64,000 nt of DNA from an uncultured SAR116 cluster alpha proteobacterium (GTDB lineage: Bacteria > Pseudomonadota > Alphaproteobacteria > Puniceispirillales > Marisalimonadaceae), in the NCBI GenBank assembly GCA_902543145.1, contig CACBXG010000006.1, forward strand, positions 1 to 64,000, in the 5' to 3' direction. This document shows, one piece after another, positions 2,255 to 31,979 of this stretch. Below the pieces are notes generated by a model. It searched no databases. It saw only the letters and a list, made by a program, of their open reading frames with translations, and was not told where the DNA came from. The translations under genes and the position numbers were made by a program. The stretch's first letter is position 1; each line of letters begins with the position of its first letter.

Positions 2255-5200
2255 ATGTCATTTTACACCGCTCTTACAGGACTTAACGGATCACAAGCTG
2301 ATATTTCAGCTACTTCGAACAACATTGCTAACGTTGCAACAACAGGTTACAAAAGAAGTAAAGCTGAATTTGGTGATATATTTGCGACATCCCCATTACA
2401 AAATGCCTCATCTTCTATTGGTTCTGGAACAATTTTGAAAGGTATTAAACAACAGTTTACTCAGGGAAACGTTTCTTCTTCACTTAATGCATTGGATATG
2501 GCTATTTCTGGTCAAGGTTTTTTTGCTCTAAAGCCGTCATTAACTACTAACCAAACTGTTTATACAAGAAACGGTTCATTCTCTGTTAATAATGACAGAT
2601 TTGTTGTTGACTCAGCTGGCCAGTTTGTTCTTGCACTACCGGTGTCAGATGATGGTTCTGTGCAAGGTGGTGAAATTGTAGATGCAAAGCCATTAAAATT
2701 AGAATTGGAAGCAGGTGAGGCTAAAAAAACAGATAATCTTGAGTTGGCTGTAAACTTACCAGCATCATCTACAGTATTTGAGTCAGCTGCAGATTTTGAC
2801 CCTAAAAATCCTGCCACATTTAATTCATCAACTTCTGTCACAATTTTTGATAACTTGGGTAATCCAGTCATTGCAACTGCCTTTTTTATCAAAACTCAAG
2901 CTGCATCTGGAGATCAGGTAACGCATAAATACCAAACTAAGTTTATTGTTGATGGAAGAGAGGTTCAACCATCATTAACAGAAGCCATTTCTCCTACAGG
3001 TCAGACATTAGTTGTCGATCGTTTTGGTCAAATCATTCCAATCAATGAAAAGCCACAGATTATTTCAGTTGCTCAAACACAACCACTATTTTTCTTAGAT
3101 GATTTATCTAACAAAACTGTGTCTAAGGCAGCAACAGTTGAGTCAACAGTTTTGGAGGATGCTGCCTTTACTGCAACAGCTCCTTCCATTACAGTGGTAA
3201 CTGATCCATTACAATACTACACTACTTATGAAGCTAATCCGACATTAAATAAATCAACATATTGGGGAAAAGATTTTTTAACAGTTCGTGTTGATGATAC
3301 AACTGGTAGTGCTAGTTTTAAAAGTATAGATATAAGACCAGGCACTTACACTGCTACTACTCTTGCATCTGAAGTTCAAAGAGCAATAAACGCTGGTTTA
3401 TCAGATGATTCAAAATTAGCAATTGACCCGGTGACAGATGGAAGTTTTTCAATTCAGTTTAACCAACTTGATAACAACGATGAAATTCAAACATTGTCAG
3501 CTATTAATGTTGATCTGATGAAAGACAGTTTTGTAACTGAAAAGCTTTTTGCAGGTACAAATGGTATTGAAAACGTTGCATCACCAAACTTTACTAGAGA
3601 AGAGTTTTTATCTCATGCACAATTGAGAATTAACGACGCGCTGAATAGGGCAGCTGTATCAGCTGATGGAAATACAAATAATTCATCAACATATGGTGTA
3701 AGCTCACAATTATTTAATAGAGTAACTGGAAAAGCTCTTACAGGTGCTATTAAAGAAACAGAAGTTTTAAGTTTTAATTATAAACATCCAACAACCGATT
3801 TAACTGATGAAAATAATGTAACTATTGAAGAAAAATTTTTACTTCATAGTTATTATAATTCTTCACCTACTTTAAAGGTGTTTGATAAAGCTGTAGACGT
3901 CACTGCTGTTGGTGGAAACACAATGGTACAAGATGCGAGTGGTACATTAAAAGTTTATATAAATGATACTAGTAATACAATTAGTTCAACAAGTTTTCCT
4001 ACTGAAGTTTTTCTTGCTGGAGAATTTGACACCACTGCTTCAACAGTAAACAATTTAAAATATAATGGTGCAAAGTTTTCTGTATCAAGTGCTGGAACGG
4101 ATGCAAATGGTAATGAATTTTTAAACCTTAAATCTGATTCAACTGCAGCAATAAATATAACCGATACTAAGATCAAAGTTTTATATTCAGAATCCAAAGA
4201 TATATCAGCACAGTTTGAGGGTGGAACAGATGTTTTTTCTGGTCAAACTGAGCATTTTGGAAGTAATAGAATTGTATTAAAAGAACTTAATAAACATTCA
4301 TATATAAACAAAAATATTCAGCAGCCAGATACTTTATTAAATAGCTCTGCAGTTACTAACAGTTCTCCAGCTACTGGTGCAGCACTAACTGTAGACACAA
4401 CAGCAGGATTTCCAACATCTGGTACTTTATTGATTGGAACAGAACAAATAACATATACTGGAACTACAGCAACAACTTTTACTGGAATAACAAGAGGTGC
4501 TAATAGTACTAATCCTGCTGCACATCTTGATGATGCCTCAATAAAGTTGTTAACTTTTACGGATGGTATTATGAGTGGTTTTAAGGATATTTTAAGAAAT
4601 ACATCAACCACTGCAGCAACAAATATAATTAGAGAAACAACAGGTGCAGCAGGACAAAACAGTAACTCTTTAGTCGTAGATGGAGGAACTAAAGGTATAA
4701 GAGTAGGTGATATGGTTGTTGGTGCTGGTATACCAGCTGATACAAGGGTTACTGTCATTAATCATAGTACTTCTACTGTAACTTTAAGTGCAAACACAAC
4801 TGCAGCACTTACAGCAACAACGTCAACCGTTGCTGGTACTAAAGTTTCATTTTTGTCGAGTAGTCATACTACTGGAACTCTTGACTATTCAGCAAATCGA
4901 CGAAGCCTTACTGTTGCAGATGTAACCGGCATTACAGTAGGAGATTCTGTATATGGCACTAATATTGCCGCATCTACAACTGTAAGCGCAATCAACGGTA
5001 ATGTAATTACATTGTCAGCGGATGCAGCTACCAATGTAAATGGTGGTGATATTAATGGTGATGAGATAAATTTTGTTAATAAAGATAATTTAGGTGCACA
5101 AGTTCTTTATGACGGAGGAGGCAACGCTCTTGCCGCCGGAGCTACAACTATCGTAGTAGATGCTAATACAAATATTACAGTAGGTGACATAGTTGAGGTT

Positions 5201-7378
5201 GCCGGCGTAACAGCTGGAACAACAGTTACAAATATCAATGGAACTACAATAACTATTAGTGCACCAACAACAGCTGCCATAGCAGATAATACCTCAATAA
5301 CCTTTTTACCAGCAGATTCTGAAGTGTTAAATGTTGGATCAACAGCAGGATTTACTGACGCAACGGCTGATGCACCAGGAAAAATCAAGCTTGGCGATGA
5401 GATTATTACCTACACTGGAAAAACTGCGACAACTCTTACCGGTATTACTCGAAGTGTTGACAATAGCGAAAGTAAGGCACTTGCAGTAGGAGCTACCGTA
5501 AGTTTGTTTGATAGTGTAGTAAACTTAGGATTATCTAATAGAACAACTGACGTTAACACCGATGTAAATGCTACAGCAACAACCATTACTGTAGATTCTA
5601 CTGCAGATTTTGAGGATAGTGGTTTTATCAGAATAGGTAATGAAGTAATTTCATATACGGGTAAAACAGCAACAAGCTTTACGGGGTTAACAAGAGGTGT
5701 TGCGGGAACAACTGCGGCTAGTCACACAAATGATGCTGTTATTACTCAAGAAATTTCTAACACTGATGATTGGGTAGATGAAGATGATCCAGCATTAAGA
5801 ATAGCTTATGATATATCTGGACAAAACTTTACTTTACAGGGCATACCTTCAAAAATTGGTACTTCTACTTCAAGTAAAATGTTTTCATTTTCAGCATATG
5901 GGCCAGGTGAAGGTAGTGGTGCCAACGCTATTGGTTTAAAAACATTAAGTAATAAGGCATCGTCAAATATTGGTGGTGGTGCAGTTTTAAAAGCTGAATC
6001 AGTTCTATTTACTGGTGACCAGATTGCTGCAGATACTCAGCAAGCTTTTGGTGTAGAAGTATCTTATAACAACCTTACTAGGAAATTTAGCATTGCCAGT
6101 GGTACTACCGGTGAAAATATACCTGCAAACTCTGCTGTAGGTGTTGGAGATGCTGGTCAGGCTTCATCAAATATAGAAATTGGTAGATTAGCTATAGTAG
6201 ATGGTGTAGCAACAGCTTCTTCTGCAGGTATTGGTGGTACAAGTGCTTTGCTAGGAATAAATGCTACTAACGAAATTACTACTGTTACTGCAGACACCTC
6301 TGGTAAAGGCTTACAATCTGAAGCTGCAGTTTTAAATGGAAAAACTTCAAACGAAGATTTGTCCGAAGATTTCTTTTTATCAGACGCTGCTGAAGAAACA
6401 ATTTTTGTTGTAAACGTAAATGATATAACTGCTGCTATTAAAGTGCCTGAAGGAGTATATAACGGAACCTCTCTAGCAACGGCATTGCAATCAAGAATTA
6501 ATCAGATGGAAGACTCTTCAGGCAACACTGTCAACGGTGTTACTGTTGTCTACAATACAACAAGCAACTCATTTACATTTACAACAGGAACAACTGGGTT
6601 AAATAGTAAAATATTTGTATCAGCAAGTGCTCGTATGGGATTAAATGATCTTGAACTGCAAACAGGTACTACACCTTCATTTGTTAATATGGCTAATACG
6701 ATTGCTAAATCAGATACTGGTCAGTCTTTGTATGTTAATGATGCTGGAACAACAACAACTCTTGCACCAGATAATGCATGGACACCAACTACTGATGGTA
6801 CTTTTGCAAAAGTATTTTTAAGACCAGGAGAATTAACATTTGATACTCAAGGTAACTTAGTTAGTCCAACACAAAAAGTGAATTATAAGGGTGACTTCGC
6901 AGCAGATGCCGCAGCAGGTACTAATGCTCTGTCTATTGATTTAGATCTAGATTTTGACGGATCGACTCAATTTGCATCTGACTTTAATGTTAGAACTGTT
7001 ACTCAAGATGGGCAAACAGTTGGTAAGTTAGATGGTTTAGATATTGCTGCTAACGGATTAGTAAGTGCTAACTATACTAATGGTTTGAACATTGCTCTTG
7101 GAAGATTAGTTATGGTTAATTTTAATAACCAAAACGGATTGAAACAAATTGGTAACGCAACATATGTTGAAACTTCAGTTTCAGGTGTTGCCGCAGTTGG
7201 GGAAGCTGGTGCTGATGGTTATGGTACAATCTTATCTGGTTCTTTAGAAAGATCAAATGTTGATATTACTGAAGAGTTAGTTAACTTGATTACCGCTCAA
7301 AGAAACTTCCAAGCGAATGCGAAAACAATTGAGACTAATACAAGTCTAACACAAGCGATTATTCAAATTAGAACATAA
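2255..7378 (+). CDS. flgE: giant flagellar hook protein FlgE, 1707 aa
   Basis: The hook subunit, normally about 400-700 aa. N-terminal assembly motif: MSFYTALTGLNGSQADI, with the rod/hook signature NNIANVATTGYKRSKAEF at about 22-39. C-terminal motif: ELVNLITAQRNFQANAKT near the end. Between these conserved ends lies an enlarged Ser/Thr/Gly/Ala-rich centre. It includes three TYTG modules (about residues 708-770, 1023-1085, 1109-1165) and three VGD-type modules (about 803-865, 877-935, 960-1015). The frame is uninterrupted and both termini are intact, so this is one real gene rather than a fusion artefact. A GGAG ribosome binding site precedes the ATG. The modules resemble repeats of phage virion proteins (from memory), which suggests acquired surface domains on the hook. 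Confidence 0.93.
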   Translation: MSFYTALTGLNGSQADISATSNNIANVATTGYKRSKAEFGDIFATSPLQNASSSIGSGTILKGIKQQFTQGNVSSSLNALDMAISGQGFFALKPSLTTNQTVYTRNGSFSVNNDRFVVDSAGQFVLALPVSDDGSVQGGEIVDAKPLKLELEAGEAKKTDNLELAVNLPASSTVFESAADFDPKNPATFNSSTSVTIFDNLGNPVIATAFFIKTQAASGDQVTHKYQTKFIVDGREVQPSLTEAISPTGQTLVVDRFGQIIPINEKPQIISVAQTQPLFFLDDLSNKTVSKAATVESTVLEDAAFTATAPSITVVTDPLQYYTTYEANPTLNKSTYWGKDFLTVRVDDTTGSASFKSIDIRPGTYTATTLASEVQRAINAGLSDDSKLAIDPVTDGSFSIQFNQLDNNDEIQTLSAINVDLMKDSFVTEKLFAGTNGIENVASPNFTREEFLSHAQLRINDALNRAAVSADGNTNNSSTYGVSSQLFNRVTGKALTGAIKETEVLSFNYKHPTTDLTDENNVTIEEKFLLHSYYNSSPTLKVFDKAVDVTAVGGNTMVQDASGTLKVYINDTSNTISSTSFPTEVFLAGEFDTTASTVNNLKYNGAKFSVSSAGTDANGNEFLNLKSDSTAAINITDTKIKVLYSESKDISAQFEGGTDVFSGQTEHFGSNRIVLKELNKHSYINKNIQQPDTLLNSSAVTNSSPATGAALTVDTTAGFPTSGTLLIGTEQITYTGTTATTFTGITRGANSTNPAAHLDDASIKLLTFTDGIMSGFKDILRNTSTTAATNIIRETTGAAGQNSNSLVVDGGTKGIRVGDMVVGAGIPADTRVTVINHSTSTVTLSANTTAALTATTSTVAGTKVSFLSSSHTTGTLDYSANRRSLTVADVTGITVGDSVYGTNIAASTTVSAINGNVITLSADAATNVNGGDINGDEINFVNKDNLGAQVLYDGGGNALAAGATTIVVDANTNITVGDIVEVAGVTAGTTVTNINGTTITISAPTTAAIADNTSITFLPADSEVLNVGSTAGFTDATADAPGKIKLGDEIITYTGKTATTLTGITRSVDNSESKALAVGATVSLFDSVVNLGLSNRTTDVNTDVNATATTITVDSTADFEDSGFIRIGNEVISYTGKTATSFTGLTRGVAGTTAASHTNDAVITQEISNTDDWVDEDDPALRIAYDISGQNFTLQGIPSKIGTSTSSKMFSFSAYGPGEGSGANAIGLKTLSNKASSNIGGGAVLKAESVLFTGDQIAADTQQAFGVEVSYNNLTRKFSIASGTTGENIPANSAVGVGDAGQASSNIEIGRLAIVDGVATASSAGIGGTSALLGINATNEITTVTADTSGKGLQSEAAVLNGKTSNEDLSEDFFLSDAAEETIFVVNVNDITAAIKVPEGVYNGTSLATALQSRINQMEDSSGNTVNGVTVVYNTTSNSFTFTTGTTGLNSKIFVSASARMGLNDLELQTGTTPSFVNMANTIAKSDTGQSLYVNDAGTTTTLAPDNAWTPTTDGTFAKVFLRPGELTFDTQGNLVSPTQKVNYKGDFAADAAAGTNALSIDLDLDFDGSTQFASDFNVRTVTQDGQTVGKLDGLDIAANGLVSANYTNGLNIALGRLVMVNFNNQNGLKQIGNATYVETSVSGVAAVGEAGADGYGTILSGSLERSNVDITEELVNLITAQRNFQANAKTIETNTSLTQAIIQIRT
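4375..5750 (+). repeat. tandem ornament modules inside flgE (TYTG and VGD types)
   Basis: Type 1 copies read roughly DTTAGFPTSGTLLIGTEQIT followed by YTG...TFTGITRG. They begin near 4378, 5322 and 5580, and each ends with an AAH or similar spacer. Type 2 copies read VGDMVVGAGIPADTRV, VGDSVYGTNIAASTTV and VGDIVEVAGVTAGTTV, each followed by I-N-G and a TLS or TIS strand. They begin near 4666, 4885 and 5136. The copies are diverged in DNA, unlike the flgK/flagellin B pair, so they are older duplications. Confidence 0.75.
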
Positions 7379-7407
7379 GTGAGTAAGTAACTTAAGGGGT
7401 AAATAAT

Positions 7408-10835: not shown

Positions 10836-11168
10836 ATGGATAATTCATTATCTAAAGTCAAACAAATTAGTCATTTAGCTACAAAATCTGTAGATGAAAA
10901 TAAGATCACTATATTACAAAAGCATAATAATAATGATTTAGGAATTGTTGCTGATCAGTTTGAATCTATTTTTGTTTATCAAATGCTTAAACAAGCAAGG
11001 CAAAGTAAGTTAGCCGAAGGAATATTTAGTTCTGAAGCACAAGATACATTCAACAATATGCTTGATATGGAGTATTCAGAAATTTTATCCAAAAAGAATA
11101 ACTTTGGCATTGCTGAGGCATTAATAAAACAATTTCAATCCCATATACATCCAAAGAAGGATAAATAA
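10836..11168 (+). CDS. flgJ: rod-binding protein FlgJ, short form without muramidase domain
   Basis: 110 aa, matching only the N-terminal rod-binding half of enterobacterial FlgJ. The conserved stretch is VADQFESIFVYQMLKQAR at about residues 32-49, followed by EGIFSSEAQDTFNNMLDMEY. There is no glucosaminidase domain, which is common in alphaproteobacteria, where a separate lysozyme opens the cell wall; no such gene is seen here. The stop shares a base with the flgK ATG (TAATG at 11166-11170), implying translational coupling to the very long flgK. Confidence 0.88.
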   Translation: MDNSLSKVKQISHLATKSVDENKITILQKHNNNDLGIVADQFESIFVYQMLKQARQSKLAEGIFSSEAQDTFNNMLDMEYSEILSKKNNFGIAEALIKQFQSHIHPKKDK

Positions 11169-14100
11169 TGGCCTCCTTATTTGAAATTGGAAAAACAGGT
11201 GTTCAAGCATATAGACAGGCTTTATCTGTGACAGGTCAGAATATTGCTAACATAAATACTGATGGTTATAATAAAAGAAGTGCTGACATAAGTGAAGTTG
11301 CTGGCGTAACAGGAGGGCCAACAAACGTTTCAGATAGTACAGGCTTGGGTGTCAGGGTCACTAATGTTCGCAGATCGTTTGACGCTTATCTTGCAGATAA
11401 AACGAGAACCTCACAATCTGAATATGCAATGTTAAATGACTTTGTTTCTAAGTTGAGTGACTTAGAAAATATGTTATTGCCTTCAGGAAGTGATTTAGGT
11501 GTTTTTATAGGTAGATTTTTTGATACTCTTCAAGATGTCGCAAGTAATCCTGATAGCATTTCTGCAAGAACAGTATCTTTAGAAGCTGGTAAAGCATTGG
11601 CTTCAGCATTTAATAATTATGATAATCAATTTAAAAATTTCAAATCAAACTCAATAAAGCAAATCGATATCAAAATAGAAGAAGCTAACTTATATATAAA
11701 TCAGTTGGTAGAAATAAATAAACTAATTGCCACTAGTGGTTCAAGTGAAGCATCAAACGATGTCCTAGACGCAAGAGACAAGTTGCTCATAGATTTATCA
11801 AAACTTTTAAATTTTACTGTTGATTATGCAGGTACAGGAGAGGCAATAGTAAGATTGGGTGACTCAGGTAATGGTGCTTTTTTAGTTAACAGAGCTAAAG
11901 GCTCAACTATTTCATCATCGTATGATGATAAAAATGTTTCATTAGTTATAAATGAAGGTGGTGGTAAAAAAAATCCAGGTATTTTTTCTTCTGGAATTAT
12001 AAATGGAATCTCAAATTTCTATAATTTAGTTGATTCAGTGAGTAGCGAAATAAGTCAACTTGCAGAACAATTTTCAAATGATGTAAATGAAATTCAAACC
12101 TCTGGTATTGATCTAAATGGTAAATCCGGAAAAGCTATGTTTTCTGTGAATTCAATGTTACCACAAGCTAATTTTAATAATAAATCACAATTAAAATTTA
12201 ATATAATTGAGGGTGATCCAAGTAAAATTTCCCAAGAGAAAATTTTAGTTAATTATTCAAAAATAAATAATAACTGGGAAATAAGAGATTCCAAGGGTTT
12301 GTCTAAGGCTGTAGGAAATAAAATTAATTTTAATGGATTTGAGGTTGAAATTATTGGTCAACCCCAAGATGGTGACGGTTTTCAAATATCTCCATCATTA
12401 ACAAAAGCAGGAGCTATGAAATTTCATTTTCAAAATCCTGAAGATTTTGCAGCTGCTTCAAAAAATTTAGTCTCAAAAAGCGCATCTAATGTAGGTGATG
12501 TAGAATTAAATATAATAGGTTCAACTACGCAGGCTAACATAGATTATCCCCCTAGCATCGATGAAGTTTTCTCTTCTAGTGGAAACCCTTTAGTTGCTAC
12601 AACCTTTTTAAAAGATGGTCCTGTAACTACAATTCCTTCAACCACTAAATCAATCAATTTAAGCTCTCTTGGAAACCAATCATCAGCTACATTTACAATT
12701 TCAGATGCAGATATTAAAGGTTTTTCATCATTTAGTATTAAACTTACAGACGGTAGTAATAATGAAGAAATTACTATTAGCTCTGCAGCAACAGATCCTG
12801 GAGATGGCATCAGATCAGTTGAAGAATTTGCTAACTTGCTAAACTCTGGATTAATGTTAGACGGTAAAAGTCAACATGATTTTAAAAAATTAGGTTTATT
12901 TGCTACTGGATCAAATGGTTATCTTACAATTGCCTCATCTTCTTTAGATATTGAGAGTTCTTCAATTTTATCTAGAGGTAATTCATTTACTCCCTCAACT
13001 ACGAATTTAACTGCTGGTGAAACAGTAGCTAGTAATTTACAGGTTTTTACAAGGGATGGTAGGCATGTATCAGGAACATCACTTAATGCAATACAAATAG
13101 CTTCATTAATAAAAAAAGAAAATGGATTTTTAGAGAGTGCTGAATATAGAAATGATTATTTAAACAATAATTATAGAGGCACAAACGTAACAAGGAAAAC
13201 AGCAAGTGGAGATTTTGTAAGCAGTTTTGGATCAAACCTTAGTTATAATGAACAAGAAACAGATATGGATGGTTTGTTAACTTCCAAGACACTGTCTTTG
13301 ATTGAAACTACACTTAAAGAAACATCATTAAATTATACTGCTGCAACCACTGTCAGAGGTGCAGAGTCAACTTACAACAACTCTGGTGGAACATTAGGTA
13401 CTAGCGCTGTTACTCAAATACCTCTTGCGGATGCTTCAAGTTTTCCTACCACAGGAGGAACAATTAAAATTGGTTCAGAATATTTCACATATACAGGTGT
13501 GAGTGTAAATACTCTTACAGGTATAACTAGAGCTCAAGAGGGAAGTACTGCTGAAGATCATGCACATAGCGCTGCTGTATATCTAGTTATTGGAAGTGGC
13601 GACGCCATGTCTAGTTCAGGAACAATAACTGTAGAAGACACTACAGCATTTGACTCTGTTGGTGCTATTCAAATTGGTAATGAGCTTTTTACATACACAG
13701 GTAAAACAGGAACAACTTTTACTGGGGTAACTAGAGCAACAAGTGGAACAACAGCTGCAAAACATGATAGAAATGATGCTATTTCTCAAGCGTTAGACCC
13801 AACGGCGACTACCATTAATGTCCCAAGTACAACAGGATTTCCTGCATCTGGTACTTTATTAATTGGATCAGAATATGTGACTTACACTGGCGTAACTGCA
13901 ACTTCTTTTACAGGTGTAACTAGGGGAACAACATTTAATACCCTGACGTCTACTGCAACAGCACACGCAAATGGCGCCTCAATAAAAGATTATTCTTCTG
14001 GAAATATAACACTTGATGGAACGAAAATACATTCAAAAGAACTTAATTCATATATTTCAATTGCATGTGAGAAAGATGAATCAGGTAGAACATTTACTGT

Positions 14101-18595: not shown

Positions 18596-19876
18596 ATGCA
18601 GATTAGTTCAAAATTATTTAATCAACAGCAATTAAAACAATTTTCATCAACAACTGAAGAACTTCAAGATCTTCAGAATAAAATTGCTACTGGTGAAAAT
18701 ATTTTAAGGGCCTCTGATGATCCAGTTGGATCTGTTGAGTTGTCAGGCCTAAATGTTGTTAAAAAGCAAATTGAACAATATGAGAGAAACGTAAATTCAG
18801 CTGATGATAGATTATCATTAATAGATAAAAATTTAGAAAACTTATCAAATGTTTTTATAAGAGTTCAGGAATTGATCATCCAGGCTTCAAGTGACGTTTT
18901 AGGTGCATCAGATAGAGAAGCAATTGCTATTGAAGTTGATCAAATGAAAGAAGAAATATTAAGTTTAGCTAATGCACAAGATAGTAATGGAAGTTTTTTA
19001 TTCAGTGGCTACAAAACAAATACTATTCCTTTTGTAAAAGATCTAACTGGCAAAATAAATTATAAAGGAGATAGGGGTATAGCATCTTTATCTATTTCTG
19101 AGTCTAGAGTAATAGAGACGACACTTGATGGAGGAACTTTATTTCAAGCTGTAAAGGGACCATCAGGAAAGAATGTCTCAATTTTCCAAATGTTAGAAGA
19201 TATTAGCTATTCAATAAGGACGGCTTCTGGAGGTGTGGACTCAGTAAAATCAACAGGTGTAGCAGAACTTACTTTTGAGAATAAAAACCCTGGCACATGG
19301 ACTTTCGATTTAACAGGAAATTTGGGTACAGCAACAATTACAGCTGAAATTACAGGTGAAGATCCTGCAGAGTTTGTAAGGCAAATTAATCTTGGGAACA
19401 CTGGGGTTGTTGCAACTATAATGGATGATGGAAAAACCATTAAATTAACTGACTCAGTCAACGGTCCAATGGAAATAAAGAATCTTTCTGTTTATGGAAT
19501 TGAAACTGCACAAAAAGATCCTACTTCATTTTTTAAAGTTCAACCTACAGATGGAATTGGAAACAACATAGGTAGTGTTCAAAAGTTATATGATAATGAT
19601 CAATTACCATCAAAACAATTAGATAATGTAGCTTCAACTCAGGTACATATTGCAAATAATAGAGGTGAAATTGGCGCTAGAACTAACTCTCTTGAGAGAC
19701 AAGTAGAGCTTTTAGCTAACCGAAGATTAGGGGTTGAAAAAGACGTAAGTGATTTAAAGGATGCAGATCTTGCAGCATTAGTAACTAATTTACAAAGTAT
19801 GTTAACGTCTATGCAAGCAAGTCAGCAATCATTTGTAAAAATTTCACAACTTAATTTATTTGATTATTTAAGATAA
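18596..19876 (+). CDS. flgL: hook-filament junction protein FlgL (HAP3)
   Basis: 426 aa. The flagellin-like N-terminus reads LQDLQNKIATGENILRASDD at about residues 23-42, and the C-terminal helix is AALVTNLQSMLTSMQASQQS. This is only modestly longer than usual and has none of the TYTG or TGTD modules that enlarge FlgK, which makes it a useful internal contrast. It follows flgK by 18 bp and ends the rightward hook cluster. The next gene lies on the other strand, with 8 bp between stops. Confidence 0.93.
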   Translation: MQISSKLFNQQQLKQFSSTTEELQDLQNKIATGENILRASDDPVGSVELSGLNVVKKQIEQYERNVNSADDRLSLIDKNLENLSNVFIRVQELIIQASSDVLGASDREAIAIEVDQMKEEILSLANAQDSNGSFLFSGYKTNTIPFVKDLTGKINYKGDRGIASLSISESRVIETTLDGGTLFQAVKGPSGKNVSIFQMLEDISYSIRTASGGVDSVKSTGVAELTFENKNPGTWTFDLTGNLGTATITAEITGEDPAEFVRQINLGNTGVVATIMDDGKTIKLTDSVNGPMEIKNLSVYGIETAQKDPTSFFKVQPTDGIGNNIGSVQKLYDNDQLPSKQLDNVASTQVHIANNRGEIGARTNSLERQVELLANRRLGVEKDVSDLKDADLAALVTNLQSMLTSMQASQQSFVKISQLNLFDYLR

Positions 19877-22771: not shown

Positions 22772-25402
22772 ATGGCTGTAGTAGATTATTTAAGTGCAAT
22801 TAATCAAGGTGGTAGTGGTTTAAATATAACCCAAATTGTTGATAGTCTTGTACAAGCTGAACAGGTTCCTCAAGAAAACCAAATTCAGTCCAAAATTGAT
22901 GCAAGAAATACCGCTATTTCTGCAATTGGTGAAATAAAAAGTGCTTTATCTAAACTTTCTACGTCTTTAAATACTCTTACTGGGAACACTTCTTTAAAAG
23001 TAAGCTCAACTAGTTCAGCAGTAAGTGCAACTATTTCAGATCCGTCTACCGCGGTAGCTATAAATTCTAGTATAAGCATCTCATCACTTGCAAAAGGCCA
23101 AACATTAGCTTTTGAGGATTACGCATCAAATACTTCACTTGTTGGCGCAGGAAGCTTGGTTTTAGAAAGAGGAGACTGGTCGTCAGGAAGTTTCGTTGCT
23201 AGTTCAAAAGTAACTTCTAAAACACTTACAGTTACAGATACTGATACTTTAGAATCATTAAAGGATAAAATAAATGCACTTAACTATGGTGTAACAGCAA
23301 GTGTTTTAGGCGCAGGCGATGATACATATACACTTGTTTTAAAATCACAGGATGGAAAAGAAAATGCGTTAAGAGTTACAGCCACAGAAAGTCCATCAGG
23401 ATCAGGATTATCTACAATTGATAATACGTCAACGAATGGATCAAAACAAAAAGTTGCTGGAACTGATGCTTCTTTTACCGTTGATGGTATTTCATTAACC
23501 AGGTCATCAAATAATATTTCAGATCTTTTTACAGGTTATAATGTAAACTTACTTGCATCTACTTCATCTAATGGAGTAGATACTCCAGCAAATTTAACTG
23601 GCTCTGTAGATACAACTTCAGCAACAACTAACTTACAAACTTTTGTAACTGCAGTTAATAATGCAAGAACATTGTTAAATGAAAAAACATTTAGAGGATC
23701 AACTTCAAAAGAAGCTGGTGAATTATCTGACGATCCGGTAGTAAAAAGTATTCAAAATCAACTAAAATCTCTTACTTCTTCACAATTAACTGGATTTGGT
23801 GCAAATGGTGTATTTCTTTCGAATTTAGGAGTTCGAACTGAAAAAGACGGATTGCTTAGCCTCAATACTACTGTATTAGAAAATGAACTAAAAAATAACC
23901 CAACTTCTTTAGATGCTATATTTAATTCAATGTATTCTTCTTCTTCAAGTTTATTATCAGTAAGTGGGGGTACAAACTCTCAACCTGTTGCAGGATCTTA
24001 TGCCTTTCAAATGACAGCATATGTGTCAGGTGCTTTTACTGGTCTTGTAAGTAATGACACATCACCAGAAGTAACTGCCTCTAATAATACTATTCAAATA
24101 ACAGTTGATGGCACTCAATCAGGATCAGTAACTGTTCCTGCTGCTCATTATACTTCTGAAGCAGCTCTTGCTACAGCAATCCAAACAGCAATAAATGCAG
24201 ACAGTACATTAAGTGGGGCTGGGAAATCAGTAATTGTCACTCATGCCAATGGTAGCTATTCGATTAAGTCAGGATCTATTGGTTCATCATCTTCGATGGT
24301 TATAAATGCAATAGGAAGTAATCTTGACGGGTTTCTTAAGTTTGTAGGCTCAACTGATGCAGATAATATTGGAACATCTCAAACTGGAACTGCCAGTACA
24401 GCTTTAACTCTAAATGGAGCGTCAGTTACAGCAACCGATCCTGATGGATTAGTTGATAATGAAACTCTTGGAAGTTCAGGTAATTTTACACTTGATGGTG
24501 CACAAACAACTTCAACAAGTCCTAGATCAGCCACAGATTTAAATTCATTTGTAACCATAGAAAGTTCAAATAATTTATCATCAGTAACATTCACCATTAC
24601 GGGTACAGATATTAATGGGACATCTCAAACTGAAACTATAACTGGTCCTACAGCTGGAAGTACTGTTGTTGGTACAAAAATTTTTAAAGACATAACACAG
24701 ATTTCTTCAAATGCATCTGCTTCAGGAGTAAATATTGGTACAAAATCAGCTTTTGTTGATCTTACAGGAAAACGGCCATCAATCGTAAGTGCTGGTGGTG
24801 ATGAGAGTGGTAAAACTTTCACTGTTGTTGGAACTGATTTATCTGGTAACGCACAAACTGAAGTTATTACAGGACCAGCAGCTAATGCAACAGTCCTTGG
24901 TTCTAAAACATTTCAAACAATTTCATCAATTACTCCGTCAGCTAACACTTCAGGATCTGTGACATTAGGTTTTACAGGAGCAGGGATTACAACTAATGGT
25001 GTTACAGGTTCAGCAACATTGGACGGTGTTTCAATGTCAGCAGATATTAACAACAATACTTTTACTATTTCATCAGGAAATGCAGCAGGATTAAAAGTGA
25101 AGTATTCTGGTCTTGGTGCAAATGCAACTGTTTACTATGGCCAAAGTTTGATTGAAAAATTAACTTCATTTTTAACTGACACTCTTAATATCTCAAGTGG
25201 GCAACTTGCAACGAGAGAAACTACGATTAACCAAGAAGTAACAGATCAATCAGCATTGTTAGTTGATTTAAATTCTCAAATGGAATCTCTCAGAAATAGA
25301 TATATTAAACAATTCACAAGTATGGAACAAGCTGTAACAAGTTTAAAATCAACTGGTGAATATTTGACTAATTTGCTTGATGCTTGGAATAAAGACGATT
25401 AA
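22772..25402 (+). CDS. fliD: enlarged filament cap protein FliD (HAP2), 876 aa
   Basis: FliD caps the filament and inserts flagellin subunits; usual size is about 450-700 aa. The N-terminal FliD_N region includes SGLNITQIVDSLVQAEQVPQ at about residues 12-31 and a following coiled coil. The C-terminal FliD_C end is QSALLVDLNSQMESLRNRYI, then the terminal helix EYLTNLLDAWNKDD. Between about residues 535 and 733 sits an insert of two TGTD-type modules, colinear with part of FlgK. The promoter is sigma-54 type. The gene is separated from the rod and hook cluster by three minus-strand genes. Confidence 0.92.
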   Translation: MAVVDYLSAINQGGSGLNITQIVDSLVQAEQVPQENQIQSKIDARNTAISAIGEIKSALSKLSTSLNTLTGNTSLKVSSTSSAVSATISDPSTAVAINSSISISSLAKGQTLAFEDYASNTSLVGAGSLVLERGDWSSGSFVASSKVTSKTLTVTDTDTLESLKDKINALNYGVTASVLGAGDDTYTLVLKSQDGKENALRVTATESPSGSGLSTIDNTSTNGSKQKVAGTDASFTVDGISLTRSSNNISDLFTGYNVNLLASTSSNGVDTPANLTGSVDTTSATTNLQTFVTAVNNARTLLNEKTFRGSTSKEAGELSDDPVVKSIQNQLKSLTSSQLTGFGANGVFLSNLGVRTEKDGLLSLNTTVLENELKNNPTSLDAIFNSMYSSSSSLLSVSGGTNSQPVAGSYAFQMTAYVSGAFTGLVSNDTSPEVTASNNTIQITVDGTQSGSVTVPAAHYTSEAALATAIQTAINADSTLSGAGKSVIVTHANGSYSIKSGSIGSSSSMVINAIGSNLDGFLKFVGSTDADNIGTSQTGTASTALTLNGASVTATDPDGLVDNETLGSSGNFTLDGAQTTSTSPRSATDLNSFVTIESSNNLSSVTFTITGTDINGTSQTETITGPTAGSTVVGTKIFKDITQISSNASASGVNIGTKSAFVDLTGKRPSIVSAGGDESGKTFTVVGTDLSGNAQTEVITGPAANATVLGSKTFQTISSITPSANTSGSVTLGFTGAGITTNGVTGSATLDGVSMSADINNNTFTISSGNAAGLKVKYSGLGANATVYYGQSLIEKLTSFLTDTLNISSGQLATRETTINQEVTDQSALLVDLNSQMESLRNRYIKQFTSMEQAVTSLKSTGEYLTNLLDAWNKDD
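24373..24970 (+). repeat. two TGTD-type modules in fliD, colinear with flgK 16225-16820
   Basis: Both genes read, in the same order: SQTGTA, LTxNG, DxDGxV, a first TG-T-D unit, then IGTxxAFVxxLGxRxSI, then a second unit ending I-T-P-x-x-N-T-x-G-x-V-x-x-G. The second unit is also close to the last unit of flagellin B. This colinearity argues that a two-unit segment moved as a block. Confidence 0.75.
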
Positions 25403-25855: not shown

Positions 25856-25948
25856 AAAGAGTGAATAACTTTGAAACTGCGGATATTTTTAAATCTAAAA
25901 GATAAGATATTCATTAGTACTTTAACAATAAAATTGGAGAATTTAGAT

Positions 25949-28900
25949 ATGAATAGTATCAATACCAATATGAGTGCCCTTCAGGCTCAAAATAATATGA
26001 GGGAACAAAATGATGCAATGAATCAGGCTATGAACAGATTATCATCAGGTTTGAGAATAAATTCTGCTGCAGATGATGCTGCTGGTTCAGCAATTGCTTC
26101 AAAAATGGAAGCTCAAGTAAGAAGTTTAGATGTAGCAATAAGAAATTCTTATGATGCTATTTCTATGACACAGACTGCAGAGGGTGCTCTTGGGGAAATG
26201 GAAAACATTTTACAAAGAGTAAGAGAATTATCTGTACAGGCTTCTAATAGTACATTATCAACTTCTGATAGAACAATGATACAAGCAGAAATTGATGCAC
26301 TTATAAATGAGATTGATGCAATTGCTGGTAATACACACTTCAATGAAGTTAAGTTATTAGATGGTTCAAATGCAACTGTAGATTTTCAAATTGGTATTAA
26401 GGCATCTGATGCATTAACAGTTAATTTACAAAACTCTGATTCTATTTCATTAGGTTTGTCAGGTTCAACAGGTGTTGAAGGTCTAACAAGTTCAAGAATG
26501 CTTAAAACTGACTATAGTGCAACTGGAGCTGCTATTGCCGCGTCAGACATTAAGATAAATGGTTTTAACGCATTTTCTCAAGATTTCAATACTAACTTAA
26601 GTACTGCGACAGTAAATACTGCTAAAACAATAGCTGATGCTATAAACCTTAATACAGGAACACATGGCGCTAATGCAAATGCTTTTAACACATTTACATC
26701 AAATGCAATGGGTACATTTAATATGACCGCAACATTTACTATCAATGGCGAGACTGTTGCTCTAGCTAGTTCATATTCACAATTAGTTTCTAATATTAAT
26801 GAATCTGTTTCTGGTATAAATGCTTCTTTAAATGCTGATAATTCTATAACATTATCTAATACAACAGGTGATGATATTATTATAAATGGTGGTCAAACTG
26901 TTGGTTTTACATCTGCATCACAAACTTTTACTGGTTTCATAGAACTAAGCAACTTAGATGGAAGTCAAGTTACTATTGAAGCTGGATCTGTTAAAAATGG
27001 ATATACAGGCGGTGCAGGTCTATTGTCTGATGTTCAGGCTATTGGATTTAACGAATTCAGTAAAGCTGGTGTTTTAGAAACTGACACGGTAAGTGGAACT
27101 GCATTAGCTGCAAATGAAGTTAAGGTTAATGATGTTTTAATTGGTGGATCAGTAACTGGTGCTGCTAATCACGTAGCGGATGCAATCAATGCTAAAACTG
27201 CTGAACATGGTGTAACAGCAGATGCTAATAACGAAATAGAGATGACTTTTGATTTTTCAGCAGGTGCTTCTTTAGCAACTGACTTTAAAATTAATGGTAT
27301 GGCTGTTGATCTAACATCTGCAACAAGTGCTGCAAATGTTGTAACTGCAGTTAATGCTGCAGGCATTGGTGATATTAGAGCATCTGCAAATGCTGATGGT
27401 ACAGTTAAACTTGTGAGTGATAGTGGTGTTGACATCGTTGTTGCTAACTCAAATAACGATATTTTAGTATCTGCAAGAGATATCCATGGTGCTGATATTA
27501 CAAAAGGTCTATCAAATGGTGTCTTTGACCTAGATGGTTTAGTATCTGGACATACAGTTGTTGCGGGAGTTTCAACTGCTATAGATATTTCTGGAAGTTC
27601 ATTAGTAGGTGATGTTGTTGATTCACGTATTGTTGTAACAATGAACGCAGCAGCTGCATATGCTAACTCAGCTAATGAGGGTATTGTGGTAAGAGGAACT
27701 AACTCTAATGGTCAAGCTATTTCTGAGACAATCTTGTTCAAAAATGGTACCCAAGCTGTTGGTGACCAAATCTTTGGTTCCACTAATTTCCATACAGTAA
27801 CATCTGTAGAAAACACATCAACAGATCCACTTGCTGGTGGTACTATTGACATTGGTTTTTTTGGAAATAGTGACACTGATGGATTGTTTACTTCTGGAAC
27901 ATTCGCAGGAACATTAAACGGTGCTCTAAATGGTACTGACATCAACAGCTATGTTGAAGTAAAACACTCTACTGCGTCAGCAGCAACATACACTATTACT
28001 GGTGTTGGTCAAGATGGTTCAGATCTTTCTGAGACTATAACAATGACAAATACAGCTAACTTAATTGTATCTAGTGAAAATATATACAAGTCTGTTACAA
28101 GCATTGCTTTAGCCACAGGAGCTTCTCCAAATAATGCTGAAATAGGTACTAATACAGTCAATGAAGACGTAGTATTTTCTTCTAGTTCTGCCACAGCAGC
28201 TGGAGAACTTACTTTAAGTACTACTGGTCAGCTAACTGGTCTAAGAGGAGCAAGAGTAATTATTTCTGGTGGTCCAGACGTTCATCTTGCTGCAGATGGT
28301 TCAGTAAATGAGCACACAGGAGACTATTCTGGTGGTAATGCTGTTAAGTTTACAGTTACTGGAACAGATCAGTTTGGTGCAACTGTCACAGAAGAAATCA
28401 CTCTTAATAAAAATACTGGCCAGGTTCATGGAACAACAGTTTTTGACTCTATTACTAAAGTCGAAACTAATGCTGCTCTTCAAGCTGCTGGTGCCAAAAT
28501 TGGCTTAGTTAGACAGGGTGACAGAGTTGAAGCAAAAGGTAACATGACACTTACTAATGATAATCAAACAGCTATCAAGTTAGAGGCTGTAGCAGATGAT
28601 CATATTGCTGGCTTGGCAACTACTGGCGCACAAGAAATAATCATGCAAAAGCTTGGTGCAAAAAATCAAAGCCAATCTTTTGAGGTAACTGGAAAAGGTG
28701 TGTCAGTTACAAATGAGTCACAAGCAACTGCTTCATTAGCTAAAATTGATGCTGCTATAGATAAAGTATCACTTTTCAGATCATCATTTGGTGCTGTTGA
28801 AAATAGAATAGATGCTTCTATAAATAATGCTACAACATTGAAAGTTAACACTGAAGCTGCTATGTCAAGAATTCAGGACGCAGACTTCGCAGCTGAGACA

Positions 28901-29002
28901 TCAAGAATGACAAAGAGTCAGATCTTATCTCAGGCTGCTACTTCTATGTTAGCTCAAGCTAATGCTTCTAAGCAAAACTTATTAGCTCTTCTTCAAGGAT
29001 AA
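25949..29002 (+). CDS. fliC: giant flagellin A, 1017 aa
   Basis: Filament subunit, about twice to three times the usual length. N-terminal D0/D1 region: SINTNMSALQAQNNMREQND, then RLSSGLRINSAADDAAGSAI at about residues 33-52. C-terminal D0/D1: SRIQDADFAAETSRMTKSQI and the end QNLLALLQG. The centre has flagellin_IN-type modules (about 200-400), similar to those of flagellin C, and three TGTD-type modules (about 530-850). I chose the ATG at 25949 (GGAGA 8 bases upstream); a frame opening at 25871 would add an untypical leader. It ends before a strong terminator shared with flagellin B. Expression probably depends on a non-sigma-54 promoter. Confidence 0.94.
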   Translation: MNSINTNMSALQAQNNMREQNDAMNQAMNRLSSGLRINSAADDAAGSAIASKMEAQVRSLDVAIRNSYDAISMTQTAEGALGEMENILQRVRELSVQASNSTLSTSDRTMIQAEIDALINEIDAIAGNTHFNEVKLLDGSNATVDFQIGIKASDALTVNLQNSDSISLGLSGSTGVEGLTSSRMLKTDYSATGAAIAASDIKINGFNAFSQDFNTNLSTATVNTAKTIADAINLNTGTHGANANAFNTFTSNAMGTFNMTATFTINGETVALASSYSQLVSNINESVSGINASLNADNSITLSNTTGDDIIINGGQTVGFTSASQTFTGFIELSNLDGSQVTIEAGSVKNGYTGGAGLLSDVQAIGFNEFSKAGVLETDTVSGTALAANEVKVNDVLIGGSVTGAANHVADAINAKTAEHGVTADANNEIEMTFDFSAGASLATDFKINGMAVDLTSATSAANVVTAVNAAGIGDIRASANADGTVKLVSDSGVDIVVANSNNDILVSARDIHGADITKGLSNGVFDLDGLVSGHTVVAGVSTAIDISGSSLVGDVVDSRIVVTMNAAAAYANSANEGIVVRGTNSNGQAISETILFKNGTQAVGDQIFGSTNFHTVTSVENTSTDPLAGGTIDIGFFGNSDTDGLFTSGTFAGTLNGALNGTDINSYVEVKHSTASAATYTITGVGQDGSDLSETITMTNTANLIVSSENIYKSVTSIALATGASPNNAEIGTNTVNEDVVFSSSSATAAGELTLSTTGQLTGLRGARVIISGGPDVHLAADGSVNEHTGDYSGGNAVKFTVTGTDQFGATVTEEITLNKNTGQVHGTTVFDSITKVETNAALQAAGAKIGLVRQGDRVEAKGNMTLTNDNQTAIKLEAVADDHIAGLATTGAQEIIMQKLGAKNQSQSFEVTGKGVSVTNESQATASLAKIDAAIDKVSLFRSSFGAVENRIDASINNATTLKVNTEAAMSRIQDADFAAETSRMTKSQILSQAATSMLAQANASKQNLLALLQG

Positions 29003-29020
29003 ATTGGAGAGATTAAGAGA

Positions 29021-29050
29021 AAAAGGCCACCTTTAGGTGGCCTTTTTTTT
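29021..29050. terminator. intrinsic terminator between convergent flagellins A and B
   Basis: Stem GGCCACC, loop TTTA, stem GGTGGCC, followed by nine T on the + strand (29042-29050). On the minus strand the same hairpin is followed by a shorter T-rich tract (TTTTTCTCTT), so it can stop both flagellin transcripts. It is the strongest terminator in the window. Confidence 0.9.
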
Positions 29051-29069
29051 TATTCAATTTTCAAATAAT

Positions 29070-31979
29070 TTAGTTTTGTAATAATTGAAGCACATTTTGT
29101 TGTGCTTTTCCTGCTTGTGCTATCATTGCCATAGCAGATTGTTGTAAAATCTGTGCCTTTGTCATCCTTGCAGATTCTTTTGCGAAATCAGCATCCTCAA
29201 TTCTACCTCTTGAAGCATTTGTGTTTAGGGCTACGTTTGACAGATTATCAATAGCTTTTTCCATTCTACTCATTAAAGCACCAAGTTTTGCTCTTTCTTT
29301 ATGAATTCTATCTAGGGACCTATCCAAAACACGTAAGGCATCAACTGAAGATTGTCTAGTTAATAAACTTACACCAGATAACTTATCTAATGACGCTGCA
29401 CCTGGTGATGCCTCAAACAGGCCTTTTCCATCTTCACCAACTACAGTGAAACTGTTGCTAGATGACATTTCAAGTTGACCTGTAATAATAACAGAATCTG
29501 CACCTTTTACACCGATCTTGATAGCACCAGTAGTTGTATCAGAAGCTGTGATTGTATGAATTGTTTTAAATATACGTCTGCCAGTTACAGTTTTATTAGC
29601 TTCAGGTCCTGTAATGACTTCAGTAAGAGAAGTACCATCCATTCCAGTTCCAACGACTGTAAATGTTTTAGTAGACTCATCACTAGCAGAGCTTGTAATT
29701 GTTACAAGTATAGACTCATTAGCTATAGTATTTTTTACACCAACACTAATTTTTGCGTCGCTATCTGTTGTTGAAGGTTTTACACTGGTAACTGTTCCAT
29801 AAATTTTTGTAGAGGTTAATGTTTTTGGATATGTACTTCCTGTATGACCGAGAATTGTTTCAGTTTGTTCATTCCCATATACATCTGTTCCAGTTATTAC
29901 AAAATTTGCACTTGATGCAGCAGTCGAAGTAATTGTAATAAATGAATTAAGAGTAGCTGTTGCATCCACCATACTTAGACTTTCAGAGCCAGTAAAACCA
30001 GCAGCAATTGTTTGTTCTAGACAAACTTTATCATCATCAGTAGCAAGTGAAGCAGGTCCATTTAATGTAAATCTTGAGGACATATCTTTGATGGATTCAC
30101 CATTTGCATGACTTGCAGCAGTTGAAGTAACTGTGTCAACTGTTGCTCCTCTGGACACACCAGTAAAAGAATTTGCAGTTACACCAGTATAAGTCACATA
30201 TTCTGATCCAATTAATAAAGTACCAGATTCAGGAAATCCTGTTGTACTTGGAACATTAATGGTAGTTGCCGTTGGGTCTAACGCTTGAGAAATAGCATCA
30301 TTTCTATCATGTTTTGCAGCTGTTGTTCCACTTGTTGCTCTGGTTACCCCAGTAAAAGTTGTTCCTGTTTTACCTGTGTATGTAAAAAGCTCATTACCAA
30401 TTTGAATAGCACCAACAGAGTCAAATGCTGTAGTGTCTTCTACAGTTATTGTTCCTGAACCAGACATGGCGTCACCACTTCCAATAGTTAAAAATACAGA
30501 AGCGCCATGTGCATGATTCTCAGCAGTACTATCTTCTTTTTCTCTGAATACACCTGTTAGAGTATTTCCACTTACACCTGTATATGTGAAATATTCTGAA
30601 CCAATTTTAATTGTTCCTCCTGTGGTAGGAAAACTTGAAGCATCCGCAAGAGGTATTTGAGTAACAGCGCTAGTACCTAATGTTCCACCAGAGTTGTTGT
30701 AAGTTGACTCTGCACCTCTGACAGTGGTTGACCCTGTTACAACTAAAGAGGTTTCAGTTGGAGTTGCTCCAATAACTTTATTGGTGGTTGTTACTGTTCC
30801 TGAAAACAAACCATCATCATCAGTTGTCGTTACATTCGTATCTCCGAGAGATACTGGGTCACCTGCTACAACTTCATTATTATCCAAACTAGTAACTAAT
30901 AAAGTTCTTCTTGTACCTGTTGTTGTTGTATCTCCTCCAAAATTTACATCACCTAATTTAATATCATAACCTTCGTTTTGCACTAAAATCATTGATGATT
31001 TGTCTGTTGAAAGGGTAGCTGTTACACCAGTAGTAGTGGTATAATTATTAATTGAATCCCGTAATTCAGATAATACAGAACTTCCTTCATTGTTATTCAG
31101 TGTAACATTTGCAGCTATTGTAACGGCTGTTGTATTTTTACCTTGTATACTAAATGATAGGCTTGTTTGGCCATTATAAGCATCATCCAAAGTTTTAGCT
31201 TGAAGTTTAAGTTGAGTAGAAGCTATGGCTGAAACTCCAGTGGAGTCAAAAACTGCATTAACAGAAGTAGCGATGTCTCTTACATTAGATCCAGCTGCTG
31301 CTGTAACAGATGAGCTTCCAAGAATGCCATGAACTGTAAATGATTCTGCCTGTACCAAATTGGTTTCTGATGTATCTGCAACAGCATAAGCATTTAATGC
31401 TAAGTTATCATTGTCAACTGGACCACCAGTATCATCAGTCGTTTCTGTTCCCTGTGATGTTGCTTTATATGCTCCTAAACTGTCTATTCTCATTGAAGAA
31501 ACTGATAATTGAGCAAATTCACGCTCATGAGTTCCAATTTGGAAACGTCTATCAGCAAATGACCCATCTAATACAGCTATTTCATTAAAGGTTGTATCTC
31601 TAGTCACACGATCTAATTCTGCCAATAATTGGTCAACCTCAGCATCAATATATGCACGTTCTTCACCATTGTAAGTGTCTGATGCTGATTGAATAGCTAG
31701 TTCTCTTATTCTTTGTATAATTGATGATGATTCATCCAATGCACCTTCAGTAACCTGTGCCATAGAAATAACGTCAGCAGCATTTCTTACTGATTGCTCC
31801 AATCCTCTAATCTGTGCAGTCATCCTGTCAGCAATTGCAGCACCAGCTGCGTCATCACCAGCATGATTAATACGTTTTCCTGATGACAAACGTTCCATCG
31901 AAGTTGTCATTTCGCGTTCTGTTGCATTTAACTTATTAAGTGCAAACTGTGCAGCGGAGTTAGTATTTACTGTTGGCAT
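29070..31979 (-). CDS. fliC: giant flagellin B, 969 aa
   Basis: N-terminus: MPTVNTNSAAQFALNKLNAT, then RLSSGKRINHAGDDAAGAAI at about residues 30-49. C-terminus: RGRIEDADFAKESARMTKAQ and QNVLQLLQN. The central part contains a flagellin_IN-like module also found in FlgK, three TYTG modules (about 418-611, near-identical to FlgK in DNA) and two TGTD-type modules (about 630-830). I chose the ATG at 31979 (GGAG 8 bases upstream); a frame open to 32012 would begin inside the sigma-54 promoter. It is the only flagellin of the three with a sigma-54 promoter. It is convergent with flagellin A. Confidence 0.94.
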   Translation of the reverse strand: MPTVNTNSAAQFALNKLNATEREMTTSMERLSSGKRINHAGDDAAGAAIADRMTAQIRGLEQSVRNAADVISMAQVTEGALDESSSIIQRIRELAIQSASDTYNGEERAYIDAEVDQLLAELDRVTRDTTFNEIAVLDGSFADRRFQIGTHEREFAQLSVSSMRIDSLGAYKATSQGTETTDDTGGPVDNDNLALNAYAVADTSETNLVQAESFTVHGILGSSSVTAAAGSNVRDIATSVNAVFDSTGVSAIASTQLKLQAKTLDDAYNGQTSLSFSIQGKNTTAVTIAANVTLNNNEGSSVLSELRDSINNYTTTTGVTATLSTDKSSMILVQNEGYDIKLGDVNFGGDTTTTGTRRTLLVTSLDNNEVVAGDPVSLGDTNVTTTDDDGLFSGTVTTTNKVIGATPTETSLVVTGSTTVRGAESTYNNSGGTLGTSAVTQIPLADASSFPTTGGTIKIGSEYFTYTGVSGNTLTGVFREKEDSTAENHAHGASVFLTIGSGDAMSGSGTITVEDTTAFDSVGAIQIGNELFTYTGKTGTTFTGVTRATSGTTAAKHDRNDAISQALDPTATTINVPSTTGFPESGTLLIGSEYVTYTGVTANSFTGVSRGATVDTVTSTAASHANGESIKDMSSRFTLNGPASLATDDDKVCLEQTIAAGFTGSESLSMVDATATLNSFITITSTAASSANFVITGTDVYGNEQTETILGHTGSTYPKTLTSTKIYGTVTSVKPSTTDSDAKISVGVKNTIANESILVTITSSASDESTKTFTVVGTGMDGTSLTEVITGPEANKTVTGRRIFKTIHTITASDTTTGAIKIGVKGADSVIITGQLEMSSSNSFTVVGEDGKGLFEASPGAASLDKLSGVSLLTRQSSVDALRVLDRSLDRIHKERAKLGALMSRMEKAIDNLSNVALNTNASRGRIEDADFAKESARMTKAQILQQSAMAMIAQAGKAQQNVLQLLQN
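30148..30728 (-). repeat. 581-bp block near-identical to flgK (copy 2)
   Basis: Reverse complement of this block aligns without gaps to 13346-13926 of flgK, with about 35 mismatches. It encodes residues about 418-611 of flagellin B. Because the genes face opposite ways, the two copies form an inverted repeat separated by about 16.2 kb that holds flgL, a hypothetical gene, fliS, the ClC gene, fliD, the oxygenase remnant and flagellin A. Confidence 0.9.

Follow-up and report, generated by a model that had tools for sequence, protein, structure and literature searches.

The giant flagellins described in PMC6248924 form thick filaments. In the passages of that paper on which we draw, those of the Oceanospirillales are marine proteins of more than about 1000 aa with tandem repeats, in which an insert replaces domains D2/D3. 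This DE region is described there for flagellins; FliD, FlgK and phages do not occur in these passages, and the likeness to the proteins treated below is one of description. Replacement of the flagellin hypervariable region by recombination has also been described, and phages and immunity have been put forward as its selective forces (PMC7018530); the passages concerned deal with flagellin genes, and FlgK is not part of their text. In flagellinolysins, a foreign domain, a single protease domain, is inserted into the centre of flagellin alone. Hypervariable outer domains have been discussed mainly for flagellin. Flagellin_IN (PF07196) is a module found in several axial proteins.

The window analyzed here is a stretch of 64,000 nucleotides (contig CACBXG010000006.1 of assembly GCA_902543145.1), to which the coordinates below refer. 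It comes from a draft genome of 1.9 Mb that is 76% complete and belongs to SAR116, a common marine group. As in the giant flagellins of PMC6248924, a long central insert is present. FlaA is longer than 1000 aa (1043 aa as called, about 1017 aa from its probable start), and FlaB, at 980 aa, is slightly shorter. Unlike in the passages on those flagellins, the modules, TYTG and TGTD, occur also in hook, junction and cap proteins, and they match virion proteins. The replacement of a presumably exposed centre between conserved ends is shared with the cases in PMC7018530, whose passages concern flagellin genes, whereas here one block is found in a junction and a filament gene of a single genome. In contrast to flagellinolysins, a module set extends across four axial families.

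Our preferred reading, to which we assign a probability of roughly 60%, is that TYTG and TGTD, which match phage virion modules, are an outward decoration that recombination shuffles between genes and between species, so that the flagellar surface varies. The ancestor of the genus would have acquired the modules from phages, tandem duplication would have spread them, and recombination between repeats would move blocks. By analogy, the modules would sit outside, in a D2/D3-like outer region. Phages that bind to the flagellum, or grazers, would be the likely selective force. It becomes testable whether the whole appendage, beyond the filament, is under surface selection, and whether virion domains are reused by bacteria to decorate their surfaces. 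Because SAR116 is common, the effect may carry ecological weight.

The hook/junction gene cluster extends up to position 19876 and is followed by the genes for FliD, FlaA, FlaB (on the minus strand) and FlaC, up to position 35309. The features are:

2255..7378, plus strand: FlgE, hook protein, 1707 aa, with a giant centre (Pfam FlgE_D2, Flg_bb_rod, Flg_bbr_C)
4379..4540, plus strand: TYTG module 1 of FlgE (HMM, 77 bits)
5324..5497, plus strand: TYTG module 2 of FlgE (HMM, 71 bits)
5576..5737, plus strand: TYTG module 3 of FlgE (HMM, 82 bits)
11168..18577, plus strand: FlgK, hook-filament junction protein, 2469 aa (Pfam FlgK_D1, Flg_bbr_C)
13301..13990, plus strand: block of three TYTG modules in FlgK, inverted-repeat arm paired with 30084-30773 (sequence self-comparison, blastn)
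13409..13576, plus strand: TYTG module 1 of FlgK (HMM, 84.5 bits)
13616..13780, plus strand: TYTG module 2 of FlgK (HMM, 84.2 bits)
13805..13981, plus strand: TYTG module 3 of FlgK (HMM, 77.6 bits)
14042..14248, plus strand: TGTD module of FlgK (HMM, 84.7 bits)
15110..15229, plus strand: incomplete TGTD module of FlgK (about 50 bits, profile positions 1-40)
15314..15523, plus strand: TGTD module of FlgK (HMM, 77.4 bits)
15716..15922, plus strand: TGTD module of FlgK (HMM, 66.1 bits)
16379..16594, plus strand: TGTD module of FlgK (HMM, 66.2 bits)
16613..16822, plus strand: TGTD module of FlgK (HMM, 79.1 bits)
17306..17512, plus strand: TGTD module of FlgK (HMM, 69.8 bits)
17534..17740, plus strand: TGTD module of FlgK (HMM, 74.1 bits)
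22772..25402, plus strand: FliD, filament cap, 876 aa (Pfam FliD_N, FliD_C)
24539..24745, plus strand: TGTD module 1 of FliD (HMM, 81 bits)
24779..24976, plus strand: TGTD module 2 of FliD (HMM, 73.5 bits)
25871..29002, plus strand: flagellin A (FlaA), 1043 aa as called (Flagellin_N/C)
27632..27862, plus strand: TGTD module 1 of FlaA (HMM, 48 bits)
27941..28153, plus strand: TGTD module 2 of FlaA (HMM, 64 bits)
28316..28510, plus strand: TGTD module 3 of FlaA (HMM, 57 bits)
29070..32012, minus strand: flagellin B (FlaB), 980 aa as called (Flagellin_N/C, Flagellin_IN)
30084..30773, minus strand: block of three TYTG modules in FlaB, the same as the FlgK block (sequence self-comparison, blastn)
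30498..30665, minus strand: TYTG module 1 of FlaB (HMM, 87.0 bits)
30294..30458, minus strand: TYTG module 2 of FlaB (HMM, 85.6 bits)
30093..30269, minus strand: TYTG module 3 of FlaB (HMM, 81.1 bits)
29733..29951, minus strand: TGTD module 1 of FlaB (HMM, 71.7 bits)
29505..29714, minus strand: TGTD module 2 of FlaB (HMM, 75.9 bits)
33315..35309, plus strand: flagellin C (FlaC), a FlaA paralogue and contrast case that contains neither TYTG nor TGTD (BLASTP, Pfam, HMM)

Judged from the sequence, the true start of FlaA is probably the later ATG at 25949, which would give the protein of about 1017 aa, and that of FlaB is probably the ATG at 31979.

An earlier note on this DNA had described ordinary terminal assembly domains around centres built from recurring modules. 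The terminal domains are confirmed by Pfam matches above cut-off at both ends of all six proteins: Flg_bb_rod/FlgE_D2/Flg_bbr_C in FlgE, FlgK_D1/Flg_bbr_C in FlgK, FliD_N/FliD_C in FliD (where FliD_C is split into two stretches flanking an insert) and Flagellin_N/C in FlaA, FlaB and FlaC. Large centres lie between these ends in FlgE, FlgK, FliD, FlaA and FlaB. The description of the centres holds in part: the modules are present, but TYTG and TGTD fill just part of each centre.

The TYTG module has about 55 residues and occurs in nine copies, three each in FlgE, FlgK and FlaB (71-87 bits by HMM, with at most 8.5 bits in shuffled sequence). The TGTD module has about 70 residues and occurs in 14 full copies, seven in FlgK, two in FliD, three in FlaA and two in FlaB (48-85 bits, with at most 9.6 bits in shuffled sequence); fragments score 47.6, 19.2 and 16.6 bits in FlgK and 12.1 bits in FlaB. 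Each module lies in the proteins named for it in the earlier note. The shuffle maxima come from 10 window proteins, each shuffled 200 times. Since the profiles were built from the window's own copies, then iterated and searched with filters off, the high scores arise partly by construction. BLASTP between the proteins is a check that is independent of the profiles, and it aligns FlaB with FlgK (60% over 419 aa, E 1e-113), FlgK with FliD (44% over 220 aa), FlaB with FliD (43% over 201 aa) and FlaB with FlgE (39% over 174 aa). It is extremely improbable that the modules are unrelated low-complexity sequence rich in T, S and G, or generic flagellin inserts. The central regions are visibly enriched in T, S, G and A, as low complexity would have it, but shuffled sequence stays at or below 9.6 bits against 48-87 bits for the full copies, and both modules have invariant columns.

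No Pfam family matches the TYTG and TGTD stretches at Pfam cut-offs. Flagellin_IN is a different sequence family: PF07196 has no match on these stretches, and its matches in FlgK (E=0.001, below cut-off) and FlaB (3e-7) lie outside them. The sharing of this module by FlgK and FlaB had been proposed before and is thus upheld. For the Flagellin_IN-like module attributed to both FlaA and FlaC, paralogy has to be substituted, as the two flagellins are related across most of their length (BLASTP, 44% over 491 aa and 40% over 171 aa), while Pfam detects no Flagellin_IN in FlaA and just E=0.03 in FlaC.

Structure models predict that TYTG and TGTD fold as small beta domains. The models are confident on the modules and poor on the flagellin core; because they are weak overall (mean pLDDT 62.1 and 63.5) and the core is badly placed, the proposed outward position rests on analogy. 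Two further repeats were seen in the window. In flgK, positions 15025-15432 consist of two adjoining 204-nt copies that are 75% identical, a tandem duplication around a TGTD unit. A third repeat type is seen in the translation of FlgE, around VGD (positions 4652-5314), which matched no phage record at E<=0.01.

Within this bacterium, the modules are nearly confined to axial flagellar proteins. All 16 TGTD matches of its draft genome are in axial genes, as are nine of the ten TYTG matches, the tenth being weak (34 bits). This weak match is located 13 kb beyond the window in a 464-aa frame (L014:481-1875, at about position 77276 of G000:C6) that has no Pfam match at E<=0.01, and many genomes of the genus have a frame of about this length in which the weak match recurs. 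Of the 37 drafts of the genus, our own included, 31 have TGTD and 29 have TYTG, five of the latter being positive just through the weak match, whose frame is non-flagellar and has about 450 aa. The misses, for either module, all fall in genomes that are 52-80% complete. The claim that one module set is present on hook, junction, cap and filament proteins thus extends from the window to the genus, throughout which this set is retained.

Architecture was surveyed in the flagellar stretches of 21 genus genomes (own included), which were picked for having modules, so that the counts are not unbiased presence frequencies. TYTG was found in 18 of 19 FlgE frames; the exception is the 404-aa piece of the split FlgE of G025, whose partner half has TYTG. 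TGTD was found in FlgK (18/18), FliD (18/18), FlaB (13/13) and FlaA (11/19), and FlaC had neither TYTG (0/8) nor TGTD (0/8). In FlgK (5/18) and FlaB (5/13), TYTG always comes in three copies. With TYTG always in FlgE and TGTD always in FliD of the surveyed genomes, what varies is the block of three TYTG copies. The split FlgE of G025 (L298, G025:C73:40204-44907) consists of frames of 404 and 1160 aa and reflects a frameshift or a sequencing error. G030 (L323, L324) has two FlgE frames that are 95% identical over 1651 aa, by duplication or in a mixed bin; both contain TYTG, and FliD has one TGTD.

Outside the genus, neither module was found in 24 order-mates of other genera, 13 of which have FlgK. 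We also sampled the class and the phylum evenly, which covers a subset of each. In the alphaproteobacterial sample, FlgK is present in 220 of 386 genomes; among the 385 other genomes, TYTG was found in none and TGTD in three, none of them in a protein that is flagellar by its end profiles. As the modules were not found in the flagella of these 385 genomes, generic flagellin inserts do not account for them. In the phylum sample (288 other genomes), TYTG was found in six and TGTD in one. The frames in 12 loci fetched for the matches in these two samples have no flagellar end profile at E<=0.01, three of the frames being cut by the locus end (L386, L388, L393/L394) and one frame of G547 being left out. 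TGTD copies lie in an alphaproteobacterial open frame of 9496 aa (G688:C2; L393, L394), of which a piece of 1065 aa has no flagellar end; a TGTD frame from another alphaproteobacterium has 650 aa and a BNR-repeat match (L312:688-2637). Named records yielded 23 loci matching the FlgK block region, 19 from the SAR116 cluster, three from alpha proteobacterium SCGC and one from an Alphaproteobacteria bacterium; it is through these nearest named relatives that the host is assigned to SAR116.

In IMG/VR, the TYTG pattern is present in at least 600 stretches, and 516 of the 600 listed were confirmed; for the TGTD pattern, which derives from 5 of the 14 copies, these figures are at least 600 and 487 of 600. 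From these pattern-picked loci, the best 80 of at least 516 were fetched for TYTG and the best 80 of at least 487 for TGTD. The TYTG profile matches an open frame in 80 of the 80 TYTG-picked viral loci, and the TGTD profile matches frames in 82 of 83 loci (the 80 TGTD-picked viral ones and three bacterial ones). In 5 of the 80 TGTD viral loci, TYTG is on a nearby frame. No flagellar end profile was detected in the viral frames of the fetched pieces at E<=0.001; by profile, the module is the same in phage virion proteins and here, with at most 80% identity. The best viral identity among the fetched copies is 80% for FlgE TYTG, 71% for FlgK/FlaB TYTG and 60-63% for TGTD.

All ten TYTG viral frames tested match PHROG families beyond the module; these families are of the tail, tail-fibre, baseplate-wedge and virion structural classes or bear an amidase label. 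The virion PHROGs bearing TYTG are 3287, 2885, 4406, 9851 and 376. Six further TYTG frames all match some PHROG family, two of them chiefly one of unknown function. For TGTD, three of seven viral frames tested have a PHROG class, in virion structural and amidase-labelled families, and no class was obtained for the smaller frames tested (209-314 aa). In the window itself, FlgE and FlaB match PHROG 4406, and FlaB also 2885 and 708, while FlgK and FliD match none at E<=0.1. Among GenBank phages, 403 records match TYTG (E<=0.1); most belong to Synechococcus phages and cyanophages, others to Prochlorococcus, Pelagibacter and Roseobacter phages. With the FliD pair as query, TGTD gave one GenBank phage match at E<=0.1, to a Pelagibacter phage. 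The relation to marine phage virion proteins, which the earlier note had put forward, is thus backed by PHROG, IMG/VR and GenBank.

A viral origin of the flagellar modules, as the earlier note had ventured, is likely from their distribution, but the module trees fit either direction. These trees (54 and 67 columns, midpoint-rooted) keep viral and flagellar copies mostly apart, with 10 and 5 label changes, and the captures therefore look few and old. On such short trees with midpoint roots, phages could also have taken the modules from flagella, perhaps for mimicking or binding them. We consider this very unlikely, as TYTG-bearing phages are known from Synechococcus, Prochlorococcus, Pelagibacter and Roseobacter, but TYTG-bearing flagella from one genus only among the sampled genomes. 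In addition, the module occurs in phage-like frames of other proteobacteria: of six such TYTG frames tested, five have matches to phage families of tail, baseplate or virion proteins. In four of these, TYTG itself accounts for most of the match, and in the fifth (L388) the match covers 460 aa of a tail-fibre family.

The presence of TYTG in phage tail-fibre and baseplate proteins raises the question of whether the modules are adhesins, that is, phage-type binding domains through which the hook, the junction, the filament and the cap would adhere to algae, to particles or to the surfaces of cells. One viral tail-fibre-like frame (L149:319-4467) joins three TYTG copies to four CBM_5_12 stretches, which are carbohydrate-binding modules. 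However, it may be the CBM part of this protein that binds, TYTG serving as a spacer. Neither profile has a solved relative by sequence at E<=0.1, and no putative binding sites were identified, so that we regard an adhesive function as doubtful.

Evidence for exchange comes from the three-TYTG block. The FlgK and FlaB blocks form an inverted repeat of 690 bases (89% ungapped; 647 bases at 91.5% by blastn), and their context is alike, with TDxDGL before and TLxG after the block. In alignments with relatives, about 230 residues of FlgK are present or absent at one place with well-conserved neighbours, and about 220 residues of FlaB are present or absent, adjoining residues differing too. Divergence in the block contradicts that of its flanks. 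Between the FlaB of G000 (our genome) and of G019, dS is 0.15 in the N-core, 0.02 in the N-variable part, 0.13 in TGTD and 0.32 in the C-core, and it is 0.90 in the block, with a pN of 0.23. Between G000 and G013, FlaB has dS values of 1.34, 1.35, 0.50 and 1.45 outside the block and 0.17 within it. The FlaB of G011 has ends close to those of G000 and G019, lacks the block and has a third TGTD copy. Within a genome, the FlgK and FlaB blocks differ by a dS of 0.20 (G000), 0.29 (G013) and 0.26 (G022), and the N-terminal cores of G000 and G013 differ by 0.85 (FlgK) and 1.34 (FlaB). The FlaB block of G019 is of a second, diverged class with 65% DNA identity to its FlgK block. Fisher tests on third positions gave p values of 9e-36, 1.5e-15 and 2.9e-12 for three comparisons, which serve as guides because codons are not independent.

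In the module tree, the block modules fall into three clades by position, each made up of five copies from FlgK and five from FlaB (support 0.97-0.999), as would be expected if the block is shared as a unit. For the G000/G013 pair taken alone, slow change of the block may be an alternative to exchange. The G000 FlaB block is 90.2% identical both to the G013 FlaB block and to its own FlgK block; the pair within G000 is thus no closer than the FlaB pair and gives no sign of very recent conversion. The FlaB TGTD flank (dS 0.50 for G000/G013) is also below the core, which means that exchange is not limited to the block. As in hypervariable-region replacement, core and centre divergence contradict each other between close relatives, and the three-module block has likely been swapped between junction and filament genes. 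The exchangeability which the earlier note had read from one genome is thus substantiated by comparison. Between G000 and G019, pN is 0.077 in the FlgK block versus 0.008 in the FlgK core; whole blocks that are exchanged and also change more in amino-acid sequence suggest that an altered surface is selected for, an argument that has been made for the hypervariable regions of flagellin (PMC7018530).

The modules might instead be neutral spacers by which the appendage becomes thicker or stiffer, a role proposed for giant flagellins, with the likeness among axial proteins due to chance duplication. Giant flagellins do make thick filaments (PMC6248924, in the passages used), and long FlgE and FlgK proteins are found in the 12 order-mates read, which have neither TYTG nor TGTD: FlgE has 1261-1576 aa (987 aa in one case cut by the contig end) and FlgK 962-2031 aa. 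Selection for a different surface explains the replacement of blocks and their raised amino-acid change better than selection for thickness does, and we consider neutral spacers unlikely.

These order-mates have shared modules of their own. We compared the centres of different axial families of the same genome at a single BLASTP threshold, and found sharing in 18 of 22 genus genomes and, among 12 order-mates from other genera, in 6. Outside the order, 1 of 24 genomes had central sharing, which is a weak control since few of the stretches had FliD or flagellin. At least four of the 12 order-mates share other central modules among FlgE, FlgK, FliD and flagellins. The clear cases are G038, G042, G044 and G053 (L314-L319, L335-L336), with a best E of 2e-17 or lower. 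In G042, FlgE shares 99 aa at 67% with FliD and 205 aa at 50% with FlgK, and in G053, FlgK shares 120 aa at 71% with FliD. The modules of G038, G042 and G053 are not TYTG or TGTD, and a search for viral relatives found none. The best-shared stretches tested from these three genomes (FlgE of G042 aside) have no Pfam family above cut-off. A viral origin is therefore not required for the arrangement. Tentatively, SAR116 may have a common coat, in which the hook, the junction, the cap and the filament bear lineage-specific outer modules that recombination keeps matched, the set of one genus stemming from captured phage virion modules. If the pattern in the order-mates holds, sharing among axial proteins would be habitual in the order, and one genus would have chosen phage-type modules for it. 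Sharing in G045 is weak, and that in G047 is borderline (E=0.001) and located where Flagellin_IN is expected. Pfam detects Flagellin_IN in FlgK of G038.
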